Assembly (NCBI GenBank): GCA_039819165.1
Contig: JBCBSM010000001.1
Span: 62,001-126,000, forward strand
Length of the DNA: 64,000 nt
Direction: 5' to 3'
Source of the DNA: Planctomycetota bacterium
GTDB taxonomy: Bacteria; Planctomycetota; Phycisphaerae; Phycisphaerales; UBA1924
Shown here piece after piece: positions 6,332 through 16,962 of this stretch (position 1 is the stretch's first letter; each line of letters starts with the position of its first letter). The notes below the pieces were generated by a model. The model made no database searches. It had not been told where the DNA came from and saw nothing but the letters and a program-made list of their open reading frames with translations. The position numbers were made by a program, and so were the translations under genes.

Positions 6332-9300
6332 CTAGACCGCGGCTCCGGCCAGCACGGGCCGGGCCGGCTCGGGCTCCCGCAGAGACGAGCCCCCGATGGA
6401 CGCGCGCCGCCGAGCGGTCCCGCGCAGCGCCACCAGCCTGAACAGCCCCGGAACCAGCAGCACCGCGAGCAGCGTGGCACCCGCGATGCCGCCCGCCATC
6501 ACGATCGCCAGGGACGGCCAGAAGTCCCCGCCGATGAACAGCAGCAGCGGCAGGAAGCCGCCGATGGTCGTCAGCGTCGTCGAGATGACGTGCCGCATGC
6601 AGCCCAGGATGGCTTCGGCGATGCCCCGTGGGTCGCCGAGCCGCGCGGTCGGGTGCTCCCGCAGCGATGCGAGCACGACGATGCTGTCGTTGAGCGCCAC
6701 GCCGATGAGGCCCAGCGTGCCCAGGATGGAGTTGAAGCTGAAGGGGAACGAGATCGCCCACGTCGCCAGCAGCGCGAGGCCGACCGAGAGCACCGCGACG
6801 GCCCCGAGGATCGCCGCCATGGCGACGCTGCGGAACGCGAGGATCAGCGTGGCGATCATCAGCACGACGAGCACCGGCGCGTAACGCGCGAGGTTGCCCG
6901 TGGCGTCGGAGTTCTGCTCGGCCGCGCCGCCGACGCTGATGGCGTATCCCGCCGGCAGCGGGGGGCCCTGCGACTGGAGGTCCTCGAGCACCTCCGCGCC
7001 GATGGCCAGCGGCAATGCGCCCGCCCGCGTGTACGCCTTCACGCTGTTGGATCGCTGCCCCTTGTAGCGGGTGATCGCGCCGCGGGCGGGCCGCAGGCTG
7101 GCGTCGGCGATGGCCGGCAGCGGCACCGCCGTGCCGTCGGGGCCGATGATCTCGGTCGACGCGATCTCGGCGATGTCGCCCCGCGCGGCCTCGGCGTGCG
7201 ACACGCGGACCGGGATCTCCTCGAGATCCTCGAGCACGGTGCCCCCGGTCACGCCCTCGTACGCGTTGCGCAGCTGCGTCGCGACGTCGACCAGCGTGAG
7301 GCCCGCCAGCTTCGCCTGCTGCTCGTCCACGTCGAACCACAGCTTCGGTTCGGCCCGCTCGATGGTCATCTGCGTGTGCAGCACGTCCGGGTGCGCCTGC
7401 AGCCGCGCGCGGAACGCCTCGCCGATGTCCTGGAGAACGTCGGGATCCGGCCCGGTCACGCGGTACTCGATGTCGGCCACCACGGGCGGTCCCTGGCCGA
7501 ACGAGCGCACCACGACCTGCGCACCCGGCAGTTGATCGTCGAGCTGGGCCTGCAATTCTGTGACCAGGCGCTTGGTGGCCTCGGCGGAGGTCGTATCGAC
7601 GATGCCGTGCGCATATGACGGCATCGCGTCCTTGTCCATCACCAGGTTGTACCACACGCTCGGGTAGCTTCCGCCCACCAGCCAGTGGACCCGCTCGACG
7701 CCGTCGGCATCGCGGATGATGGACTCGGCCCGCTCGGATTCCGCCCGCGTGCGCGAGAGCGAGGCGTCGCTGGGCATCCAGATCTGCACGTGGAACATGT
7801 CGCGATCCACGGGCGGGAAGAACTGGTTGCCGAGCATGGGCGCCACGGCGAATCCGGCCAGCGGGGCGATCAACGCCAGGCTGATGGCCGCCACGGGACG
7901 CTCGTAGAGCGCCCGCAGCACGCGCGCCAGCCCGCGGCCCCGGGTCCTGCTGCCGACGCCATCCTTCCACCAACGGCGGCGGGACTCGGGCGCTCTGGAC
8001 ACGAAGATGCCCGCGAGCGCGGCGATGATCGTCAGCGACACGCCGAAGGAGAACACGACGGCGTAGATCACGCTCTGCCCGATGGAGCCCACGAAGTCGC
8101 CCGCGCCGCCGGGCAGCAGCAGGATGGGCGCGAAGGCCAGCACGGTCGTGAGCGTCGAGGCGCCCAGCGGCCCGGCGAGGTGCCGCACGGCCGAGCCCAT
8201 CGCGTCGACCCTGCTCGCGCCCGCGCGCAGCCGCGCGGTAACCTCGTCGGTCACGACGATCGCGTTGTCCACAAGCAGGCCGAGCGCGATGATCATGCCG
8301 AAGATCGACATCTGGTGCAGGCTGTTGCCGCTGGCCTGGATGGCCGCGAGCGTGAGCGAGACAACCAATGGCAGGGCCGACCCCACGATGACCGCCTGCC
8401 GCATGCCCATGGTCAGCCAGATGACCGCGAGGATCACGCCCGCGCCCGCCAGCAGGTTCAGGCCGAGCTCGGTCAGCCGCGCCGACGTGTAGCTGGTCTG
8501 CTCGAACACTCGCTGGACGTCCAGGCCCGAGCGTTCGGCCTCGAAGCTTCGCAGCACGCCGCTCGCCTGCTGGGCCCAGGCGTCGGCCTGCGCGTTCCCT
8601 GCCATGCGTGCCGCGACGAGCACGCCACGCCGGCCGTCGCTCAGCGCGAGTGCGTCCACCGGCGTGCGGATGTCCCGATCCAGTGTTGCGATGTCCGACA
8701 ACCGCAGCACGCGGCCATCGGCGCCCTCGCGGAGCGGAATGGCGGCGATCCGCTCGAGCGTGTCCAGCTCGCCGGCCACCTCGATCAGCACGTCGTTCGC
8801 CGCGCCGCGCACCACGCCCGCGGAGGACCTCGAGTCCGCATCGCGGATGAGCTGCGCGATCATGCCCGCATCCAGCCCGAGCGCGGACGCCTCGTCGGCG
8901 TCGAGGCGCACGCGGATCTCCTCTCGGGCGTCGCCGTACACGCGGACCAGCTCCGTGCCCGGCACGCCCCGCAGGCGGTCGGCCAGTTCCTCGGCCTGCC
9001 TCGTGAGCACCCCGATGGATGCTGCCGAGGGCTCCCTCGAGCCGACGGACGCCACGAGCGTGTAGGCAACCGGATCCCGCTTGTCGTCCATGTCGGGCCG
9101 GCCCGCGCCCGCCGGAAGCCGCGGCTCGACGTCCCGCAGCTTGTCGCGGATCTCGCTGAAGATCTCCTGGTTTTCGCGCGCGGTGATGCGGTCCAGCAGT
9201 TCGATGGACACCACCGACATGCCCGCTCGCGACGTCGTCTCGACCTTCTTGATCTCATCGATCTCGTCCAGCGCCGTCTCGATGGGCTCTGTCACTAAGC

Positions 9301-9484
9301 TCTCGACGCGCTCGGCCGAGGCGCCCGGGAACGGCGTGAGCACCAGCGGCCCGCGGTTGACGATGCGCGGATCCTCGAGTCGCGGGATGGTCAGGAAGCT
9401 GGAGAGGCCCGCGACCAGCGAGACCACGATCAGCAGCCCCAGCAGGTAGCGATTCCGCATCACGAGGGTCGACCAGCTAGCCAT
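6332..9484 (-). CDS. RND-family efflux permease (AcrB-like)
   Basis: A 1050-residue inner-membrane resistance-nodulation-division transporter, of normal length for the family. It has a first membrane helix at about 11-30, a large periplasmic porter domain with PRLEDPRI and PFPGASAERVE near the N-terminus, helices 2-6 from about 340 to 500, a second periplasmic half, and helices 8-12 from about 860. The helix-4 motif reads GLLVDNAIVVTDEV, so the second Asp of the AcrB pair is Asn. The helix-10 motif reads GVALNDSIVVL, without the AcrB-type Lys, as in several less-studied RND branches. It is third in the tetR-adaptor-permease operon, and its ATG lies 8 nt inside the end of the adaptor gene. No outer-membrane channel gene follows. 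Substrate is unknown. Confidence 0.95.
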   Translation of the reverse strand: MASWSTLVMRNRYLLGLLIVVSLVAGLSSFLTIPRLEDPRIVNRGPLVLTPFPGASAERVESLVTEPIETALDEIDEIKKVETTSRAGMSVVSIELLDRITARENQEIFSEIRDKLRDVEPRLPAGAGRPDMDDKRDPVAYTLVASVGSREPSAASIGVLTRQAEELADRLRGVPGTELVRVYGDAREEIRVRLDADEASALGLDAGMIAQLIRDADSRSSAGVVRGAANDVLIEVAGELDTLERIAAIPLREGADGRVLRLSDIATLDRDIRTPVDALALSDGRRGVLVAARMAGNAQADAWAQQASGVLRSFEAERSGLDVQRVFEQTSYTSARLTELGLNLLAGAGVILAVIWLTMGMRQAVIVGSALPLVVSLTLAAIQASGNSLHQMSIFGMIIALGLLVDNAIVVTDEVTARLRAGASRVDAMGSAVRHLAGPLGASTLTTVLAFAPILLLPGGAGDFVGSIGQSVIYAVVFSFGVSLTIIAALAGIFVSRAPESRRRWWKDGVGSRTRGRGLARVLRALYERPVAAISLALIAPLAGFAVAPMLGNQFFPPVDRDMFHVQIWMPSDASLSRTRAESERAESIIRDADGVERVHWLVGGSYPSVWYNLVMDKDAMPSYAHGIVDTTSAEATKRLVTELQAQLDDQLPGAQVVVRSFGQGPPVVADIEYRVTGPDPDVLQDIGEAFRARLQAHPDVLHTQMTIERAEPKLWFDVDEQQAKLAGLTLVDVATQLRNAYEGVTGGTVLEDLEEIPVRVSHAEAARGDIAEIASTEIIGPDGTAVPLPAIADASLRPARGAITRYKGQRSNSVKAYTRAGALPLAIGAEVLEDLQSQGPPLPAGYAISVGGAAEQNSDATGNLARYAPVLVVLMIATLILAFRSVAMAAILGAVAVLSVGLALLATWAISFPFSFNSILGTLGLIGVALNDSIVVLASLREHPTARLGDPRGIAEAILGCMRHVISTTLTTIGGFLPLLLFIGGDFWPSLAIVMAGGIAGATLLAVLLVPGLFRLVALRGTARRRASIGGSSLREPEPARPVLAGAAV

Positions 9485-10613
9485 CCCGGCGCTCCGCCTC
9501 GGATTCGACGGGCCGCACCCGGATTCCCGGCACGATCCGCTGCGTGCCGTCCTCCACGATCAGCTCGCCGCCGGCGACGGGTCCCCGGACGTATGCCCGG
9601 ACGGCTTCCGGGCGGATGAGCTCTACTTCGCGTCGCTCCAGGATCCAGCCCTCGTCGGCCGGAGTGACGACGTAGAGCGCCCACAGCCCGCGATTGCTCT
9701 GCGTGAGCGCGGACAGCGGCACCCAGAAGCCACGCTCGTCGAGGCGATCCCGCAATCGGATGGATACGTTGCCGCCGTCGCGGAGCACGCCGCCGAGCGG
9801 CTCCTCGAGCGCGAGCCGCACCTCGGCGGTGCGTGTCCGCCGATCGATCGACGGCAGCACGCTCACGACGCGCGCCGGCCATGTCCGTCCCTCGCCGACG
9901 ACGTCGATGCGGTCTCCAAGGGCGGCGAGCGCCCGCGGCGCCACGCCGATGCGCACCTCGGGCGATTCGGTCTCCAGCAGGCTCAGCACGCGGACGCCGG
10001 GCTGCATCACCGCGCCGACGTCGGCGTGCCGGTCGGCGACGAACCCGTCGAAGGGCGCGACGATGGTGCTCTTCGAGAGGTCCACTTCCACGAGCGCCAG
10101 GGCGGATTCGGCCTGGCCGACCCGTGCGGTCAGCGACGCCACCGAACTGATGACCTGGTCCATCTCCTGCTCGCTGACCGCATCGGCCTCGTACGAGCGG
10201 CGGGTGCGCTCGAGCGTGATCTCGGCGATCGAAAGATCGGCCCGGGCTTCCTCCAACGCGGCCCCAAGCCGGTCCCGGTCGGCTCGCAGCCGCGCGGTGT
10301 CCAGGCCGGCGATGGGATCGCCCGCGCGGACGAGATCGCCCTCGTCGGCATAGATCGCCTCGATCTTGCCGGCCAGTTCGAAGGCGGCGTCGATCCGCTG
10401 CCGGGCCTGGATCTCGCCGCGGTACCGCGTCTCGATCTCGATCGAGTCGAGCCAGCGCACCGGCGCGACCGAGACGGCGAGCGGGCGGGCCTCAACCGTG
10501 GAGTCGTCGCCGCCGGAGCGCGCGACCACCGCGGTGCCGCCGACCAGCACGAGCACGCCCAGCACCACGGCGGCGGTCGGCAGCGCCCGCCTGGCGATCT
10601 GCAGGCCATTCAT
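9477..10613 (-). CDS. RND/HlyD periplasmic adaptor subunit
   Basis: A 378-residue membrane-fusion protein that links the RND permease to an outer-membrane channel. It has an N-terminal anchor or signal helix at about 10-30, then a biotinyl-lipoyl half-motif (AFELAGKIEAIYADEGDLV). An alpha-helical hairpin of about 100 residues follows, then the second lipoyl half (STIVAPFDGFVADRHADVG), the beta-barrel and the membrane-proximal domain. The start chosen is the ATG at 10613 because GGAGG sits 7 nt upstream; an in-frame ATG 24 nt earlier has no such site. The 3' end overlaps the permease start by 8 nt. It lies downstream of tetR with an 82-nt gap. Confidence 0.93.
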   Translation of the reverse strand: MNGLQIARRALPTAAVVLGVLVLVGGTAVVARSGGDDSTVEARPLAVSVAPVRWLDSIEIETRYRGEIQARQRIDAAFELAGKIEAIYADEGDLVRAGDPIAGLDTARLRADRDRLGAALEEARADLSIAEITLERTRRSYEADAVSEQEMDQVISSVASLTARVGQAESALALVEVDLSKSTIVAPFDGFVADRHADVGAVMQPGVRVLSLLETESPEVRIGVAPRALAALGDRIDVVGEGRTWPARVVSVLPSIDRRTRTAEVRLALEEPLGGVLRDGGNVSIRLRDRLDERGFWVPLSALTQSNRGLWALYVVTPADEGWILERREVELIRPEAVRAYVRGPVAGGELIVEDGTQRIVPGIRVRPVESEAERRDG

Positions 10614-10695
10614 GACGAACCCTCCATGGAAAAACACCGGTCAAGGAATGACGAAGCGTCAGAAGCACGACAAATAGAGAAGGCAGCCCGCGGCA

Positions 10696-11421
10696 TCACG
10701 CCAGCCCCTCGGGCAGGCGTTCGTCGAACACCGCCTCGCAGATGCGCGCGGCCGACGCGCGGTAGTCCCACTCAGCGGCGAGCGGCCGCCATCCGTAGCC
10801 GTCGAGCATCGCGTTGTAGTTGCGCCACAGCACGGGGTGCAGGTCGATGCCCTCGAAGGGCGGCATCGGCTCGGTCGACGCGATGCGGTAGTGCCCGATC
10901 GACTGCGTCCACAATCCGTAGAGCGGCGCGCACAGCGGCAACTCGGGCGGCAGATCCAGATCGCCGGTCTCGATGGCGTCCCGCACGATGCCGGTCAGCA
11001 CGTCCATCATCGCCGACTTGGTGTGCGTCCACGCGTCGCGGCGCTCCTGGCTGATCTTGTCGGCGATCGAGCGGAGATCCAGGATGCTCTCCACCGCGAA
11101 GTGGTCCGGGAATCGGCGGATGAAGATGGCATCGGCGACGCCGATGGCGAGGATCCGCTCCCGCGTCCGGCCGTCGTAGGCCGCCGCCTGGCGGAACATC
11201 TCCGCCCGCGCCAGCGCCGTGTCGTTGCACAGCGCGGCGATGAGGTCCTCCTTCGAGCTGAAGTGCTGGTACACCGTGCCCTTGGAGTACTCGATGGTCT
11301 CGGCCAGCCGGTCCATGTTCAGGCCCAGGTAGCCGCTCTCGGCGAGCATCCGTCGGGCCGTATCGAGGATGAGCTTCTCGCGGGCGATCTTCTCGCGTTG
11401 ACGGCGAGCAACGGTAGCCAT
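10696..11421 (-). CDS. TetR-family transcriptional regulator of the RND operon
   Basis: A 241-residue regulator. The N-terminal DNA-binding domain at about 15-60 holds the helix-turn-helix LAETIEYSKGTVYQHFSSKE, typical of TetR. The C-terminal ligand domain is helical and divergent. It is first in the operon tetR-adaptor-permease, so autorepression with derepression by an efflux substrate is the usual model (inference). There is no Shine-Dalgarno. Instead the ATG lies 5 nt after a strong -10 box, so the mRNA is probably leaderless. Confidence 0.92.
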   Translation of the reverse strand: MATVARRQREKIAREKLILDTARRMLAESGYLGLNMDRLAETIEYSKGTVYQHFSSKEDLIAALCNDTALARAEMFRQAAAYDGRTRERILAIGVADAIFIRRFPDHFAVESILDLRSIADKISQERRDAWTHTKSAMMDVLTGIVRDAIETGDLDLPPELPLCAPLYGLWTQSIGHYRIASTEPMPPFEGIDLHPVLWRNYNAMLDGYGWRPLAAEWDYRASAARICEAVFDERLPEGLA

Positions 11422-11577: not shown

Positions 11578-12951
11578 TCAGCTGGGCCCGCGAGGGCCCG
11601 GAATCCGCCGGCCGTGGGGGTCCACACTCGGCCCAGCGGGCGGGGGCATGTCGAGGTGCTCGAGCTGCTCCGCGGGATCGTGGACGTGGTCGGGCGCGTA
11701 GCCGGCCTGGTCGACCAGGTAGCTCTCCCAGAGGCGGTGCCGGCGGACGAGGGCGGACGCCCGCGTGGTGCCCTCGGGCGTGAGTCGGAGGGCATCGCCG
11801 CGCCGCTCGACCATGCCCGCGCGCGTCGCAACGCGCAGCGCGCCGGCGATCCGGCGGGCCGGCAGAGCAGAGGCGAGTTCGCGCTCCGCTATCGCGTCGC
11901 GGCCAGCTTCGGCGTTGCGATAGAGGGCCGCGAGCGCATCGTCCAGGGCGACCCGCAGCGCGACCCGCCGCCGCTGCACCAGCCTAGAGACCACGCCGTG
12001 CCGCGGCGCCGCGACGATCGCGGTCACCAGCAGTCCGCCGGCCGCCACGGTCATCCCGCCGGCGGCGTTGACGGCATCCAGGCCGAACGCCGCGGGGATC
12101 GCGCTCGACCCCACGTAGCCGCCGACGGCCGACGCGATCGCGATCGCGACGCTCCAGGCGATCTGCGTCGCGAGCCGATTGGTCAGCAGCCGCGCGGTGG
12201 CGGCGGGGCACACCAGCATCGCGATGACCAGGATGGAGCCGACGGCCTCGAAGCTGGCGACGGTTGCCGCCGCCACCAGCACCATCAGCGCGTAGTGCAG
12301 CGCCGTGGCGTGGAAGCCCTGCGAGGTTGCGAGGGCGGCATCGAAGGCGGCGATCCGCAGCTCCTTGAACAACACCACGACGAACGCGATCGCTACGGCC
12401 GCCGTGATCGCCAGCACGACCACCTGCCGGGGGATCTCGCCCAGCGTCGACCAGCTGACCAGCGCCGCGAGCGTGTCGGGGGCCGAGTACCAGGCGAGGT
12501 ACTCCAGCTGGCCGTGCAACACGCAGTCGGCATCGAGGTGCAGGTTGCGGGCGGCGGCCCGCTCGATGAGCAGCACGCCCAGCGCGAAGAGCACGCTGAA
12601 GACCACGCCCATGGCCGCCCCGGGCTCGATGCGTCCGAGCTTCTTGACCGCTTCGACCAGCACGACCGTGGCGATGCCCGCGATGGTCGCGCCGGCGAGC
12701 ATCGCCAGCGGGCTGCTCGTGCCGGCCAGCAGGAACGCGACGACGAGCCCGGGCAGGACGCTGTGGCTGATGGCGTCGCCCATCAGGCTCAGCCGCCGCA
12801 ACACCAGGAAGTTGCCGAGCACGCCGCAGCTCACGCAGGCCAGCACGCCGGCGAGCAGCGGGAACAGGTCGAGCGCGAGCAGCGTGCGCAGCGCCTCGCT
12901 GGGCTGGTGCATCCAGCCGCCGACGTTCGTTGTTGTTGCGAGTGGCACCAT
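11578..12951 (-). CDS. Metal ABC transporter permease fused to C-terminal DtxR-like domain (second permease)
   Basis: 457 residues. The first 290 or so form a family-3 ABC permease of the Mn/Zn/Fe uptake type with eight or more hydrophobic helices and the motifs GDAISHSVLPG and FEAVGSILVIAML. Past the usual end of such permeases there is a winged-helix-like segment (about 320-385, ending LRLTPEGTTRASALVRRHRL). A DtxR/MntR-like dimerisation piece follows, RRHRLWESYLVDQAGY then AEQLEH. These match the metal-site segments of the regulator at 16297 (MIRRHRLIEVFLVETLGF, AERLEH), including the His and the E-x-x-E-H ligands. The start ATG overlaps the TGA of the upstream permease (TGATG). It is last in the operon. 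The fused domain probably senses metal or gates transport, which is inference. Confidence 0.9.
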   Translation of the reverse strand: MVPLATTTNVGGWMHQPSEALRTLLALDLFPLLAGVLACVSCGVLGNFLVLRRLSLMGDAISHSVLPGLVVAFLLAGTSSPLAMLAGATIAGIATVVLVEAVKKLGRIEPGAAMGVVFSVLFALGVLLIERAAARNLHLDADCVLHGQLEYLAWYSAPDTLAALVSWSTLGEIPRQVVVLAITAAVAIAFVVVLFKELRIAAFDAALATSQGFHATALHYALMVLVAAATVASFEAVGSILVIAMLVCPAATARLLTNRLATQIAWSVAIAIASAVGGYVGSSAIPAAFGLDAVNAAGGMTVAAGGLLVTAIVAAPRHGVVSRLVQRRRVALRVALDDALAALYRNAEAGRDAIAERELASALPARRIAGALRVATRAGMVERRGDALRLTPEGTTRASALVRRHRLWESYLVDQAGYAPDHVHDPAEQLEHLDMPPPAGPSVDPHGRRIPGPRGPS

Positions 12952-14291
12952 CACGGCGCGGCACCCCCGGCCGAGGGCACGGCGACGCCGCGGGCGGCCA
13001 GTTCGGCCTCCAGCCGCCGCACCAGATCCTCGGAGAGCGCGTGCTCCACCTGATCGACCGACCAATCGACGTGGCTGGGCGCGATGTCGGCGTGGCTGAT
13101 CAGGTACTGCTCCCAGAGCGCGTGGTTGCGGGCCACGCGGGCGCCCCGGGCGAGGCCCGCGGGCGACGGCTTCACGACGCCGCTCGCGGTGTTGGCGTCG
13201 CCGCGGAGCCGCAGCGCCAAAAGCACCAGCAGCCGCAGCGCGGGCGACCAGCGTCGCCGCTCGGCCAGGCGTCCGACCTCGGCGGCGGATAGCTCGCGGG
13301 CGCCGCGCTCGTGCGCGAGCTCGAGCAGGTGGTCGCCGGCGATCCGCACGCGGAGTCGGACGCGGCGGATCAGAGCGGCGACGACGCCCCTGGCCGGCGC
13401 GGCCAGGAAGCTGATCGCGAAGATCCCGCCCGCGGCCAGCACGATGACCGCGCCCGCGGGCTTGCGGGGGAGCAACGCGGAGACCACGGACCCCAGGTAG
13501 CCGCTCGCCGCTCCGAAGGCGCCCGCGAGGACCACCAGCAGCCACAGCCGCTCGGTCCAGAAGCGGGCGGCCACGGGCGGGATGATCAGCATCGCGACGA
13601 CGAGGATGAGTCCGACCGCCCGCAGCCCCGCGACGGTGACGAGCACGACCAGGCCCATCATCAGCAGATCGAGCAGGCCCACGGGCCAGCCGTCGACGCG
13701 GGCGAAGGCGTCGTTGAAGCAGGCGAGCTTGAACTCCTTGAAGAGCAGCAGCGTGGCCAGGATGGCCGCCGCGGCGATGCCCGCCATCGCCAGCACGTCG
13801 CCGGGCTGCATCGTCGCCGCCTGGCCGTAGATCAGCGCGTCGAGCCCCGCGGCGCCGGTGGCCGCGTTGGCCTGGATGTAGCTGAGCAGCACGACGCCCG
13901 CGCCGAAGAAGACGCTCAGCACAATGCCGATCGCCGCGTCCTCGCGCAGCCGTGTGTGCCGCAGGATCAGCTGGATGCACGCGACCCCAAGCACGCCGGT
14001 AGCCGCCGCGCCCACGAGCAGCAGCGGCAGCGTGCGGCCATCGAGCCCGATCGCGCCGGCGAGCAGGAAGGCGGCGGCGATGCCCGGCAGCGTCGCGTGG
14101 CTGATCGCATCGGCAACCAGCGCCCGCTTGCGCAGCAGCGCGAAGACGCCGACGACGCCTGCCGCCAGCCCGAGCAGGGAGGTGCCCGCGACCACCACGC
14201 TCGTGTTGAAGCCCGCCCGGAACGTGAGCGTGTCGACGATCTCGGCCAGGCCGACCGCGTTGCCCGGTTGCGTCAGCCCGGGGGGGCGCAC
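12951..14291 (-). CDS. Metal ABC transporter permease fused to C-terminal DtxR-like domain (first permease)
   Basis: 446 residues with a GTG start 3 nt after the stop of the ATPase gene. Residues 1 to about 295 are a family-3 ABC permease (VADAISHATLPGIAAAF, LRAVGLILVVAMLIIPPVAAR). The tail of about 150 residues has a winged-helix-like part and a DtxR-type segment, ARNHALWEQYLISHADI followed by VDQVEH, which keeps the His and the E-H pair but has Asp for the first Glu of E-x-x-E-H. Two different permeases in the operon suggest a heterodimeric membrane channel. Its stop overlaps the next permease start by one base. Confidence 0.9.
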   Translation of the reverse strand: MRPPGLTQPGNAVGLAEIVDTLTFRAGFNTSVVVAGTSLLGLAAGVVGVFALLRKRALVADAISHATLPGIAAAFLLAGAIGLDGRTLPLLLVGAAATGVLGVACIQLILRHTRLREDAAIGIVLSVFFGAGVVLLSYIQANAATGAAGLDALIYGQAATMQPGDVLAMAGIAAAAILATLLLFKEFKLACFNDAFARVDGWPVGLLDLLMMGLVVLVTVAGLRAVGLILVVAMLIIPPVAARFWTERLWLLVVLAGAFGAASGYLGSVVSALLPRKPAGAVIVLAAGGIFAISFLAAPARGVVAALIRRVRLRVRIAGDHLLELAHERGARELSAAEVGRLAERRRWSPALRLLVLLALRLRGDANTASGVVKPSPAGLARGARVARNHALWEQYLISHADIAPSHVDWSVDQVEHALSEDLVRRLEAELAARGVAVPSAGGAAP

Positions 14292-14294
14292 GGC

Positions 14295-15128
14295 CTAGCG
14301 CCGCCCCGCGGCCGCGCGGGCGACGGCCTCGGCGGCCTCGGACAGCAGCGTCAGCCGGCCGCCGTAGGTCCGCTGTAGGTTCTCCGGGGTGAAGACCTCC
14401 GGCACCGGGCCCGCGGCCACGATCCGCATGTTCAGCAGCATCACGTCGTCGAAGTACTCGGGCACGGTCTGCAGGTCGTGGTGCACGGCGACGACGGTCT
14501 TGCCGGCCCGCTGCAACTCGCGGAGCACGCCGACGATGGCCCGCTCGGTGGCCGCATCGACGCCCGCGAAGGGCTCGTCCATGAAGTAGAGGTCGGCTTC
14601 CTGCGCCAGGGCGCGCGCCAGGAACACCCGCTGCTGCTGCCCGCCCGAGAGCTGGCTGATCTGCCGCCGCGCGTAGTCCCGCATGCCGACGCGTTCCAGG
14701 CACTCCAGTGCCGCGTCCTTGTGGCTCCGGGTCACCGGACGGCACCAGCCGATCCTTCGGTATCGGCCCATGCACACCACGTCGAGGGCCGACACCGGGA
14801 AGTCCCAGTCCACGCTCTCCCGCTGGGGCACGTAGCCCACGCGGGACCGCGCGCGGCGGTACGCCCCCCCCCAGAACTCGACCTGGCCCGACGCGCGTGG
14901 CACGAGGTCGAGGCAGGCCTTGATCAGCGTGCTCTTGCCCGCGCCGTTGGGGCCCACGATGGCGATCAACCGGTTGGGGGCGGCATCGAAGTCGACGTCC
15001 CACAGCACCGGCTTGCGGTCGTAGGCCACCGTCATCGCGTGCACCGAGAGCGGGCTCGCCGACGAGTGCTCGGGCCGCTCGGCCAGATCCGTGGCCGCCC
15101 GCGTCGTGGGGTGCAGGACGCTCGGCAT
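14295..15128 (-). CDS. Metal (Mn/Fe/Zn-type) ABC transporter ATP-binding protein
   Basis: 277 residues. Walker A is GPNGAGKS, the Q-loop lies in [14 protein letters not shown], the signature is LSGGQQQR, Walker B is [11 protein letters not shown], and the H-loop is [10 protein letters not shown]. The [16 protein letters not shown] segment is typical of the manganese/zinc uptake ATPases (MntB/TroB/ZnuC). About 25 extra N-terminal residues precede the domain. It lies 5 nt downstream of the solute-binding protein gene and 3 nt upstream of the first permease, so it is clearly co-transcribed. Confidence 0.94.
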
Positions 15129-15133
15129 GGCCG

Positions 15134-16177
15134 CTACCTGGGCGAAGCCGGCGCCGCGAGCCGGCCCTGCATGCCGCCCTCGGGCGCCTCGCCGCCCAGT
15201 GCGCGGGCGATGGTCGTCACGTTGTGGTCGATCATGCCGACGTAGGTGCCGCGGTAGGTGCCCGCATCGCCCATCGCGTCGCTGAACAGCGTGCCGCCGA
15301 TGGAGACCTCGTGCCCCCGCGCCCGGGCCCCGGCTATGAGCGCCTCAACATTGCGTTGCGAGACCGTCGACTCGACGAACACCGCGGCGATCTTGCGGTC
15401 GACGAGCAGGTCGACCAGACGCTCGATGTCCCGCACGCCCGCTTCGGAATCCGTCGAGATGCCCTGGATGCCCACGACCTCGTAGCCGAAGCGGCGGCCG
15501 AAGTAGTTGAAGGCGTCGTGGGCCGTGACCAGCGCCCGCTGCTCCTCGGGAACGCTCGCCAGCACGCGGACGGCGTAGGCGTCGAGCGCGTCGAGCCGGG
15601 CGGCGTAGGCCTCGGCGTTCTCGCGGTACGCCGACGCGCCCTGCGGATCGAATTCGGTCAGCTTGTCCCGCACGACGCCGACCGCCTTGGACCACGCCAG
15701 CGGGTCCATCCACACGTGCGGGTCGTAGTGGCCCTCGAAGCCCTCGGGCTCGAGCAGGTAGGCCTCATCGAGCAGTTCGGTCACGCGGAAGACCTTCTTG
15801 CCCGCCTCGGCGGCGCGGAACAGCGAGTCGGTCATCTTGCCCTCGAGCAGCAGTCCGTTGATGAAGATCGCGTCGGCGCCCAGCAGCCGCTGCACGTCGC
15901 TCCGCGTGGGCTTGTAGAGGTGGGGGTCGACGCCCGAACCGATGAGGCCCGTCACCGTCGCCCGCTCCCCCGCGACGTTCCGCACGATGTCGGCCACCAT
16001 GCCCGTGGTGGCGACGATCGAGTAGGTCGCCCCGCCGGATGCTGCGCCGCTATCGGCGGGTCCCGACGCGGGTGTGGCGGTCGTCGCGCCCTCGCCGCAG
16101 CCCAGCAGCAGCCCGAGGATCGGGAGCAACCAGAGCAGCGGGGATCGTGCCGGCGCGCGGAGCGTGGTGCCTTGCAT
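15134..16177 (-). CDS. Metal ABC transporter solute-binding lipoprotein (cluster A-I, Mn/Fe-type)
   Basis: 347 residues. The signal peptide ends in the lipobox LLGC, so it is lipid-anchored outside the inner membrane. The metal-ligand motifs are [10 protein letters not shown] (His), YDPHVWMDP (His), VFVESTVS (Glu) and FSDAMG (Asp). A His-His-Glu-Asp set, with no His-rich loop, is the pattern of Mn/Fe binders such as PsaA, MntC and TroA rather than ZnuA. The ATG at 16177 has GGAGG 4 nt upstream; an in-frame ATG 51 nt earlier lacks one. It is first in the four-gene operon and controlled by the promoter/operator at 16219-16249. Confidence 0.93.
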
Positions 16178-16218
16178 GCGTCCTCCGAGTTGGGGGCCAT
16201 CCATCATCGGCCACGGCA

Positions 16219-16249
16219 AGCATAGCATTCAAAGTTTGTCTAGTCAAAC
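16219..16249 (-). promoter_or_regulatory. Promoter of the metal ABC operon with overlapping DtxR/MntR-type operator
   Basis: On the minus strand TTGACT (16247-16242) and TATGCT (16224-16219) are separated by 17 nt, a near-consensus housekeeping promoter. The palindrome GTTTGACTAGACAAAC (16249-16234) covers the -35 box. 14 of its 16 bases are symmetric around CTAG, the architecture of DtxR/IdeR/MntR boxes. A DtxR-family regulator is encoded immediately upstream, so metal-loaded regulator blocking this promoter is the obvious model. Established for the family; inferred here. Confidence 0.82.
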
Positions 16250-16296: not shown

Positions 16297-16962
16297 CTAG
16301 CCGACGGGATCGACGTGGATCTTCTCGGCCGCCTCAAACGACAGGCTGACGGGCGATCGCCGCATCGCCTTGACGCTCATCGACCCGGCCTCTGGTACGA
16401 CCTCGACCACGCCGATCCGGGTGCCGGGCCGCAGGCCGTGCTTCGCCGCGAATCCCAGAAAATCGGGGTCTTGGTCGACGATGCGGGCGACCACGCCCCG
16501 ATCCCCCGCGTGCAACTGCGAGAGGGGTGTGGACCGGTCCTCGACCAGCCGGCCGTCGGCGTCGGGTATTGGGTCGCCGTGCGGGTCGATCGAGGGATGG
16601 TCCAGGAAGGCGTCCAGGCGGTCCAGCACCTTTGCGGAGAGGGCGTGCTCCAGCCGCTCGGCCTCCTCGTGCACCTCGGCCCAATCGAAGCCCAGCGTCT
16701 CGACGAGGAAGACCTCGATGAGCCGGTGCCGGCGGATCATGTCGATCGCCAGCTTGCGGCCCCTGGCCGTCAGCCGGATGCCGCCGTACCGCTCGGCGTC
16801 CGCGAGCTTCGCTTCGCGGAGCTTGCGGACCATGGCCGTCACGCTGCCCTTAGTCACGCCCAGGGTCGCGGCGAGGCGGACGACGGTGGCCTCGCCCGTC
16901 GGCGCATCCCGCTGCAGCAGGTAGATCGCCTTGACGTAGTCTTCGACGGTCGAGGTCGGCAT
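16297..16962 (-). CDS. DtxR/MntR-family metal-dependent repressor
   Basis: 221 residues with three parts. A winged helix covers 1-72 (VEDYVKAIYLLQ, LGVTKGSVTAMVRKL). The dimerisation and metal domain is about 73-140 (RRHRLIEVFLVETLGFDWAEV, EAERLEHALS). A FeoA/SH3-like C-terminal domain spans about 145-221. The His and the E-x-x-E-H metal ligands are present. It is encoded just upstream of, and on the same strand as, the metal ABC operon, whose promoter carries a matching palindrome. A TAGCAT hexamer lies 8 nt before the ATG with no Shine-Dalgarno. Mn and Fe cannot be separated by eye; the binding-protein ligands favour Mn or Fe over Zn. Confidence 0.92.
   Translation of the reverse strand: MPTSTVEDYVKAIYLLQRDAPTGEATVVRLAATLGVTKGSVTAMVRKLREAKLADAERYGGIRLTARGRKLAIDMIRRHRLIEVFLVETLGFDWAEVHEEAERLEHALSAKVLDRLDAFLDHPSIDPHGDPIPDADGRLVEDRSTPLSQLHAGDRGVVARIVDQDPDFLGFAAKHGLRPGTRIGVVEVVPEAGSMSVKAMRRSPVSLSFEAAEKIHVDPVG

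Follow-up and report, generated by a model that had tools for sequence, protein, structure and literature searches.

Why should both permeases of a metal importer end in a domain that resembles a metal-dependent repressor? The question is raised by a 64,000-nucleotide stretch of a Planctomycetota bacterium (assembly GCA_039819165.1, contig JBCBSM010000001.1, positions 62,001 to 126,000; here called the window), in which an operon-like row of genes on the minus strand encodes a DtxR/MntR-type regulator, a binding protein, an ATP-binding cassette (ABC) ATPase, permease 1, and permease 2. Both permeases run on for about 140 to 150 residues beyond the membrane part, and these extensions are referred to as tail 1 and tail 2. 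The answer that we favor, with a probability of about 0.5, is that the tails are metal-sensing feedback domains: metal bound in the cytosol would slow transport, and the free regulator would take care of repression at an operator. Its basis, drawn from sequence and structure models, is the fold of the tails, their conserved metal-site residues, a drifted recognition helix, a separate regulator, and a conserved palindrome. The features of the two permease genes, in which the ATG of permease 2 and the stop codon of permease 1 overlap by one base, are as follows.

12951..14291, minus strand: permease 1, 446 amino acids (aa), GTG start (PF00950 and PF02742; AlphaFold predicted local distance difference test score [pLDDT], 90.0)
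12954..13385, minus strand: tail 1, residues 303-446, degenerate winged helix plus metal/dimerization segment (Pfam, AlphaFold, profile and structure matches)
12999-13163, minus strand: Fe_dep_repr_C match of tail 1, residues 377-431 (Pfam)
11578..12951, minus strand: permease 2, 457 aa, ATG start (PF00950 and PF02742; AlphaFold pLDDT, 91.9)
11581..11994, minus strand: tail 2, residues 320-457, degenerate winged helix plus full metal-site residue set (Pfam, AlphaFold, profile and structure matches)
11656-11781, minus strand: Fe_dep_repr_C match of tail 2, residues 391-432 (Pfam)
11599-11622, minus strand: end motif DPHGxxIP of tail 2, residues 444-451 (sequence)

In permease 1, Pfam places the ABC-3 domain at residues 33-296 and Fe_dep_repr_C (PF02742; cut-off, 27 bits) at residues 377-431 (E 6e-10, 39.4 bits, profile positions 2-56 of 70). 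Permease 2 likewise combines ABC-3 with Fe_dep_repr_C, at residues 391-432 (E 3e-15, 56.4 bits, profile positions 1-42 of 70). The N-terminal DNA-binding model PF01325 matched the free regulator and neither tail in the Pfam search. Among the NCBIfam models, the tail of permease 2 matched MntR with an E of 1.1e-7, far under the cut-off, and no match to that model was found for permease 1.

The AlphaFold model of tail 2 has block pLDDT values of 91-98 over residues 321-450 and 77 at the extreme end; that of tail 1 has values of 93-97 over residues 301-380 and of 91 and 82 over residues 381-400. Residues 331-456 of modeled tail 2 superpose on DtxR 3-139 (Z 16.1, root mean square deviation [rmsd] 2.1 Å, 125 aligned), and residues 314-442 of modeled tail 1 on DtxR 3-134 (Z 12.8, rmsd 2.6 Å, 124 aligned), both alignments spanning the DtxR winged helix and metal domain. 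In a Foldseek search with permease 2, DtxR-family chains rank directly behind the PsaBC permeases. Profiles of 27 rows each found 32 distinct PDB sequences at an E of ≤0.001 for tail 2 (best E 1.1e-28) and also for tail 1 (best E 4.9e-17), all of them named as DtxR/IdeR/MntR/SloR-type regulators apart from the hypothetical protein SSO2273, found with the tail-2 profile. In the models, then, both tails carry the two-domain DtxR/MntR fold. A sequence-only reading had proposed such domains on both permeases, and with Fe_dep_repr_C over its cut-off and models that match DtxR, that proposal holds; structure prediction and profile searches are positive for both tails. The coordinates and motifs that it gave are also as described (R(R)HRLWE...AEQLEH in permease 2, NHALWE...VDQVEH in permease 1, and RHRLIE...AERLEH in the regulator).

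The conservation of the tails was followed in related loci, for which we fetched 60 stretches via PF02742, 80 with named hosts, and 20 at the phylum level; together with the window, 151 loci were kept. Sets A (L033-L092) and C (L173-L192) were obtained through tail matches, and for set B (L093-L172), loci were picked out by permease patterns and ordered by how similar they were to a tailed protein. We dropped L036 (10 bases only), four stretches that lack a permease (L073, L074, L082, and L087), and the duplicates L096, L097, L104, L115, and L176. Both permeases are tailed in 100 of the 151 loci, a share that is not a natural frequency, since the loci were chosen largely by similarity to tailed proteins, and that takes in loci with an eroded tail 1, because classes were set by extension length. 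Besides the loci that have a full tail on only one permease, there are 3 with a single chain, 10 with a single tailed permease, 7 in which permease 2 alone is seen, and 2 in which permease 1 is short-tailed and permease 2 bare.

The nearest relatives with named hosts are metagenome-assembled genomes of Phycisphaerales, and loci with both permeases tailed come from Planctomycetota and from records labeled Spirochaetaceae, Omnitrophota, Verrucomicrobia, and Kiritimatiellae. A less biased figure comes from phylum-wide genomes: in 63 of 294 (counted by hand), the tail-2 profile scores 100 bits or more within an open frame of 420 aa or longer, these frames not having been checked one by one as permeases. 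Tailless ABC-3 permeases are also common, with many (uncounted) frames of 270-350 aa among 119 phylum genomes, 103 of them with a match.

Metal-site residues were counted in a 299-row automatic alignment, by which ligand positions were compared; the position names (M10, 79, 83, 98, 102, 105, and 106) follow what we take to be the DtxR numbering. The one-chain loci were left out of these counts; L184, whose permease 2 looks frameshifted, and L162, at a contig end, were kept and counted as broken, and permease 2 of L144 is split over two frames. In the window, tail 2 has the full set (D338, H405, E409, H424, E428, E431, and H432), whereas tail 1 is a variant in which M10 is H and 98 and 102 are both D. 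The statement of the sequence-only reading that the ligands are mostly conserved is therefore accurate for tail 2 and needs qualification for tail 1.

The same pattern extends to the relatives. Among 117 rows of tail 2, D is found at M10 in 103, H79 in 114, E83 in 109, and H98, E105, and H106 in 110 each; at position 102, the rows divide into E (65), M (19), H (10), D (10), S/G/T/P (7), and gaps (6). Among 125 rows of tail 1, M10 is H in 84 or N in 27, with H79 in 111, E83 in 112, D98 in 102, D102 in 106, E105 in 116, and H106 in 113. Thus, as judged from the alignment, tail 2 retains a DtxR/MntR-like residue set and tail 1 a distinct H/N-H-E-D-D-E-H set, both being predicted sites. With an intact site defined as H79, E83, H/D98, E/D/M/H/C102, E105, and H106, at least one tail is intact in 121 of 131 two-permease loci and both in 79; in 73 of these 79, tail 1 has D98/D102 and tail 2 has H98 with E/M/H/D at 102. 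All 10 single-permease systems, which are presumably homodimers, bear a tail with an intact site.

Compensation between the tails, one being intact exactly when the other is broken, is not a rule, given these 79 loci and the 10 with no intact tail. The Trp of HRLWE, present in 124 of 125 rows of tail 1, 108 of 117 of tail 2, and all 10 single tails and in none of the aligned free regulators (0 of 28 and 0 of 15), was not used as a tail-only marker, since free regulators with HRLWE are known from other phyla.

Alternatively, the tails could be domains that receive metal from the permease exit, or they could be structural and serve folding or assembly with the ATPase. We consider this possible but unlikely. 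Alphaproteobacterial loci retain a shortened tail without the metal residues, and permease 2 of five loci (L173, L178, L180, L181, and L191) keeps the winged-helix-like segment only; since tails persist there without the metal residues or the metal domain, part of their role would be metal free. On the other hand, the whole metal-site residue set is conserved, including E/M/H/D at 102, which goes beyond the needs of a scaffold. In the same five loci, the tail of permease 2 is about 100 residues long and lacks the metal domain, and tail 1 has a full H98/E102 site. In the alphaproteobacterial loci L159, L168, and L171, the shortened tail 1 has lost its metal residues and keeps an RLWE/RLWD-like part, as a remnant domain.

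The DNA-reading half of the tails behaves very differently from the metal half. Helix-turn-helix (HTH) entropies were taken from an order-level set of 45 tail-1, 48 tail-2, and 28 short and 15 long free regulator sequences, the free regulators beside the tail families being of two very different types. Mean HTH column entropy is 2.64 for tail 1 and 2.71 for tail 2 versus 1.09 and 1.30 for short and long free regulators, and 0 of 32 and 0 of 29 HTH columns are conserved at 90% in the tail families versus 12 of 30 and 4 of 30 in the regulators. The metal core of the tails, with entropies of 0.94 (tail 1) and 1.17 (tail 2), shows a conservation close to that of short regulators (1.06) and weaker than that of long regulators (0.63). 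When pairs with a metal-core identity of 0.50-0.70 are compared, the two tail families (3551 and 3566 pairs) each have an HTH identity of 0.20, a value that may be lowered somewhat because tail HTH columns are harder to align automatically; short free regulators (283 pairs) reach 0.58 and long ones (20 pairs) 0.38. Single-permease fusions, five long-tailed and five short-tailed, also have an HTH identity of about 0.2 (7 and 10 pairs).

From these alignments, sequence-specific DNA binding conserved across the tails is unlikely, although an individual tail could have a binding site of its own. The idea that the importer tethers DNA through its tails is disfavored, the recognition helix having drifted by both the entropy and the matched-identity comparison. 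The same data bear on the possibility that, like the chlamydial YtgCR, the tails work as metal-dependent repressors, either tethered to the membrane or released by proteolysis. The domain order is that of YtgCR, in which, according to passages of two sources, cleavage frees YtgR from YtgC and YtgR acts as a repressor of its own operon (PMC5599777, PMC7755916), and the winged-helix fold is present in the AlphaFold models of both tails. However, the tail HTH is unconserved, each transporter has two divergent tails, and 53 of 56 genomes have a nonfused regulator-type protein, whereas in Chlamydia, according to a further source, no iron-dependent regulator other than YtgR has been identified (PMC6504234). 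We regard such repressors as improbable.

The free regulator and the site ahead of the binding-protein gene are the other part of the argument.

16297..16962, minus strand: free DtxR/MntR-type regulator with HTH, metal/dimerization, and FeoA domains (Pfam PF01325, PF02742, and PF04023)
16234..16249, minus strand: near-palindrome GTTTGACTAGACAAAC in the gap between the regulator and binding-protein genes, probable operator (read from sequence)

PF02742 matches outnumber the locus tails in 53 of 56 set-A genomes (counted by hand), from which a nonfused regulator-type protein follows for those genomes; the remaining three (G007, G032, and G095) are drafts with a completeness of 91-95%. In the window's own assembly, PF02742 has three matches, namely, tail 1, tail 2, and the free regulator (16962-16297). 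The palindrome (16249-16234) overlaps a promoter-like TTGACT-17-TATGCT, both having been noticed by eye; an inverted-repeat tool reported none in the regulator-binding-protein gap at the settings used. A scan with the core taken from the window (two of 14 positions free, ≤2 mismatches) found core-like sites in 26 of 130 stretches upstream of solute-binding-protein-like frames, the window counted, versus 8 of 411 random stretches from the same loci. No core-like site was found in the other 104 upstream stretches, and the operator of short-type regulators may be a different one. Classical repression would thus be the task of the separate regulator and the conserved operator-like palindrome, binding of the one to the other being the expected link.

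A regulator so close by could itself be the target of the tails. In Mlc-like control, the state of a transporter governs transcription, and the tails might likewise act on the free MntR-type regulator, by binding it or by drawing it to the membrane. The shared fold, which dimerizes in DtxR, and the presence of the free regulator inside 41 of the 56 set-A stretches are in keeping with such contacts; Escherichia coli Mlc is named in part of one source (PMC10710835). However, short and long regulators stand beside the same tail families, so that a specific interface would be hard to maintain, and this explanation, too, we regard as improbable.

Feedback on transport is favored over these explanations because the metal residues are kept, the DNA helix has drifted, a free regulator is present, and the tails presumably lie at the place where the ATPases dock. 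The locus has the makings of an ABC-3 manganese, zinc, or iron importer (PF00950 permeases, a ZnuA-type binding protein, an ATPase, and metal-gate Asp and His residues), and we propose that it imports a divalent metal, most likely manganese. Metal-gate residues D46/H50 of PsaC, as given in passages of PMC11779740, align with D59/H63 of permease 2, and these residues and D61/H65 of permease 1 are invariant in 50-row alignments. The two different permeases would form a heterodimer. A 1:1 pair is supported by three loci in which permease 1, tail 1, and permease 2 lie in one open frame (L060:4871-7312, L063:3542-6163, and L070:58-2643). In these single frames, a signal-peptide-like hydrophobic segment follows tail 1.

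The DtxR-fold domain of each permease would face the cytosol, beside the ATPases. Rising cytosolic metal would bind the tails, at the DtxR/MntR-like site of tail 2 and at the acidic variant of tail 1, and this would lead to a conformational change in the tails, or to their pairing, by which the transporter is slowed or locked (trans-inhibition). Such pairing is plausible, since two tails are present on most transporters of the chosen set. The free MntR-type regulator would add slower transcriptional repression at the operator ahead of the binding-protein gene. That the importer senses metal alongside classical repression was also suggested by the sequence-only reading; the conserved site residues, the free regulator, and the palindrome fit this suggestion, and sensing itself is what we infer from them.

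Several observations weigh against feedback by paired tails. A tail is found on permease 1 only in 17 of the 151 loci (15 of them sure, permease 2 of L157 and L172 running off the contig) and on permease 2 only in 6, and 6 more combine tail 1 with a shortened tail 2 (L162 being cut by the contig end); pairing is thus not required everywhere. Loci with tail 1 only include several Opitutales, Puniceicoccaceae, Akkermansiaceae, and other verrucomicrobial records, and in Azospirillum and other alphaproteobacterial records tail 1 is shortened and eroded. Of the 10 of 131 two-permease loci without an intact tail, 8 are alphaproteobacterial, their sole tail having lost its metal residues, and 13 loci with an intact tail 2 have a tail 1 from which one or more site residues have been lost. 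The metal segment of tail 1 (residues 401-440) is modeled with moderate confidence (pLDDT 67-85). In the window, tail 2 lacks the helix after E431-H432, which may weaken dimerization; the same helix is gone in those relatives of the window whose Fe_dep_repr_C match is short (positions 1-42 to 1-47). Finally, in passages of PMC10710835, known trans-inhibited importers place the regulatory domain on the ATPase and not on the permease.

Retention of the metal residues and drift of the DNA-reading helix in about 100 tails of each kind nevertheless point to direct feedback on the pump. If this is true, a metal-gated ABC importer would have been built from a transcription factor, and one would have to ask whether, before it is cleaved, the chlamydial YtgCR regulates transport as well. 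Put more broadly, and tentatively, at odds that we place just short of even, a captured DtxR-fold repressor would have become a posttranslational gauge, its paired, asymmetric tails having given up DNA reading in order to gate transport, widespread in Planctomycetota and relatives and working beside transcriptional control.

A tree was built from 83 sequences of tails and regulators. One weakly supported branch (Shimodaira-Hasegawa-like approximate likelihood ratio test, 79) separates tails 1 and 2, together with five single-permease tails, from the free regulators and the other five single-permease tails, few columns being available. Three tail-2 rows (L146, L182, and L183) cluster with tail 1. 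The tree allows, but does not show, one fusion before duplication of the permease. A plasmid search for outgroup permeases gave 14 records, none covering 80% of the query, with matches confined to the permease part.

The remaining genes of the operon-like row are as follows.

15134..16228, minus strand: ZnuA-family metal-binding lipoprotein (PF01297, E 1.3e-77)
14295..15128, minus strand: ABC ATPase, 277 aa (PF00005, ABC_tran at residues 44-188)

The true start of the binding protein is probably downstream of 16228, because a promoter-like -10 element lies at 16224-16219. The best NCBIfam match of the ATPase is MntA-like, under that model's cut-off, and no added C-terminal family is seen among the matches listed (25 of 31 Pfam matches). 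A genome-wide search with PF00950 found the two permeases to be the sole ABC-3 permeases of the assembly. Downstream of the operon and on the same strand (6332-11421), translations read by eye indicate an RND-type (resistance-nodulation-division) efflux pump (6332-9484), a membrane-fusion protein (9477-10637), and, beside these pump genes, a TetR-like regulator (10696-11421).

Other arrangements of the same domains were seen among the fetched loci. Tails of 217-253 residues occur in L185-L188, L190, and L146, and the extra part of permease 2 in L146 is a FeoA domain just above the cut-off, so that this protein may be the nearest in layout to YtgCR. Two proteins (L074:4607-5692 and L087:4104-5174, both on the plus strand) have an apparent N-terminal membrane helix, judged by eye, followed by a DtxR-type metal segment (HRLWE/HRLLE), that of L074 also having a FeoA domain (Pfam). 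Both are encoded upstream of an open reading frame with FeoB_C and Gate domains, and from this arrangement a membrane-anchored metal sensor for a second importer is possible.

Among known systems, the closest in layout is YtgCR of Chlamydia trachomatis (CT069), which likewise joins an ABC metal permease to a C-terminal DtxR-like domain with metal residues kept (PMC5599777). Passages of that review describe YtgR as cut from YtgC and DNA binding and orthologous permease-DtxR fusions as present in 11 bacterial phyla. Only YtgC is described there as fused, whereas both permeases are tailed here; the released YtgR of 28-30 kDa binds DNA, whereas the tails of about 140 aa have an unconserved HTH. 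YtgR is also the sole identified iron-dependent regulator in the part of PMC6504234 that treats it, whereas a free regulator and an operator-like site exist here. Permease-DtxR fusions are therefore already known, a point that the sequence-only reading did not make. A search of a limited literature collection found no description of paired tails or of non-DNA-binding tails, and as far as that search goes, what would be new is that both permeases bear a tail, each of the pair with its own metal-site residue set, that conservation of the DNA helix is lost, and that a free regulator and an operator-like site are present as well.

The DtxR/IdeR/MntR regulators (DtxR, SloR, and Deinococcus radiodurans DR2539, 5zr4) share the two-domain fold and metal residues; the tails differ in being attached to permeases and in having an unconserved recognition helix; those of the window also have no FeoA domain, which the free regulator does have, and tail 1 has D at 98 and 102. 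Streptococcus pneumoniae PsaBC and Bacillus anthracis MntBC share the permease fold (PsaC chains, Z 31.6 and 34.1) and the metal-gate Asp/His; they are homodimers according to passages of PMC11779740, and the PsaC chains, of 258-290 residues, have no tail and align only to permease residues up to 324 and 319. For the mechanism, the nearest analogs would be MetNI and ModBC, which are shut by substrate bound at C-terminal domains, as described in part of PMC10710835. The proposed likeness is that cytosolic substrate on an added C-terminal domain stops transport, although in MetNI and ModBC that domain belongs to the ATPase and has a different fold, whereas here it is part of the permeases and has the fold of DtxR.

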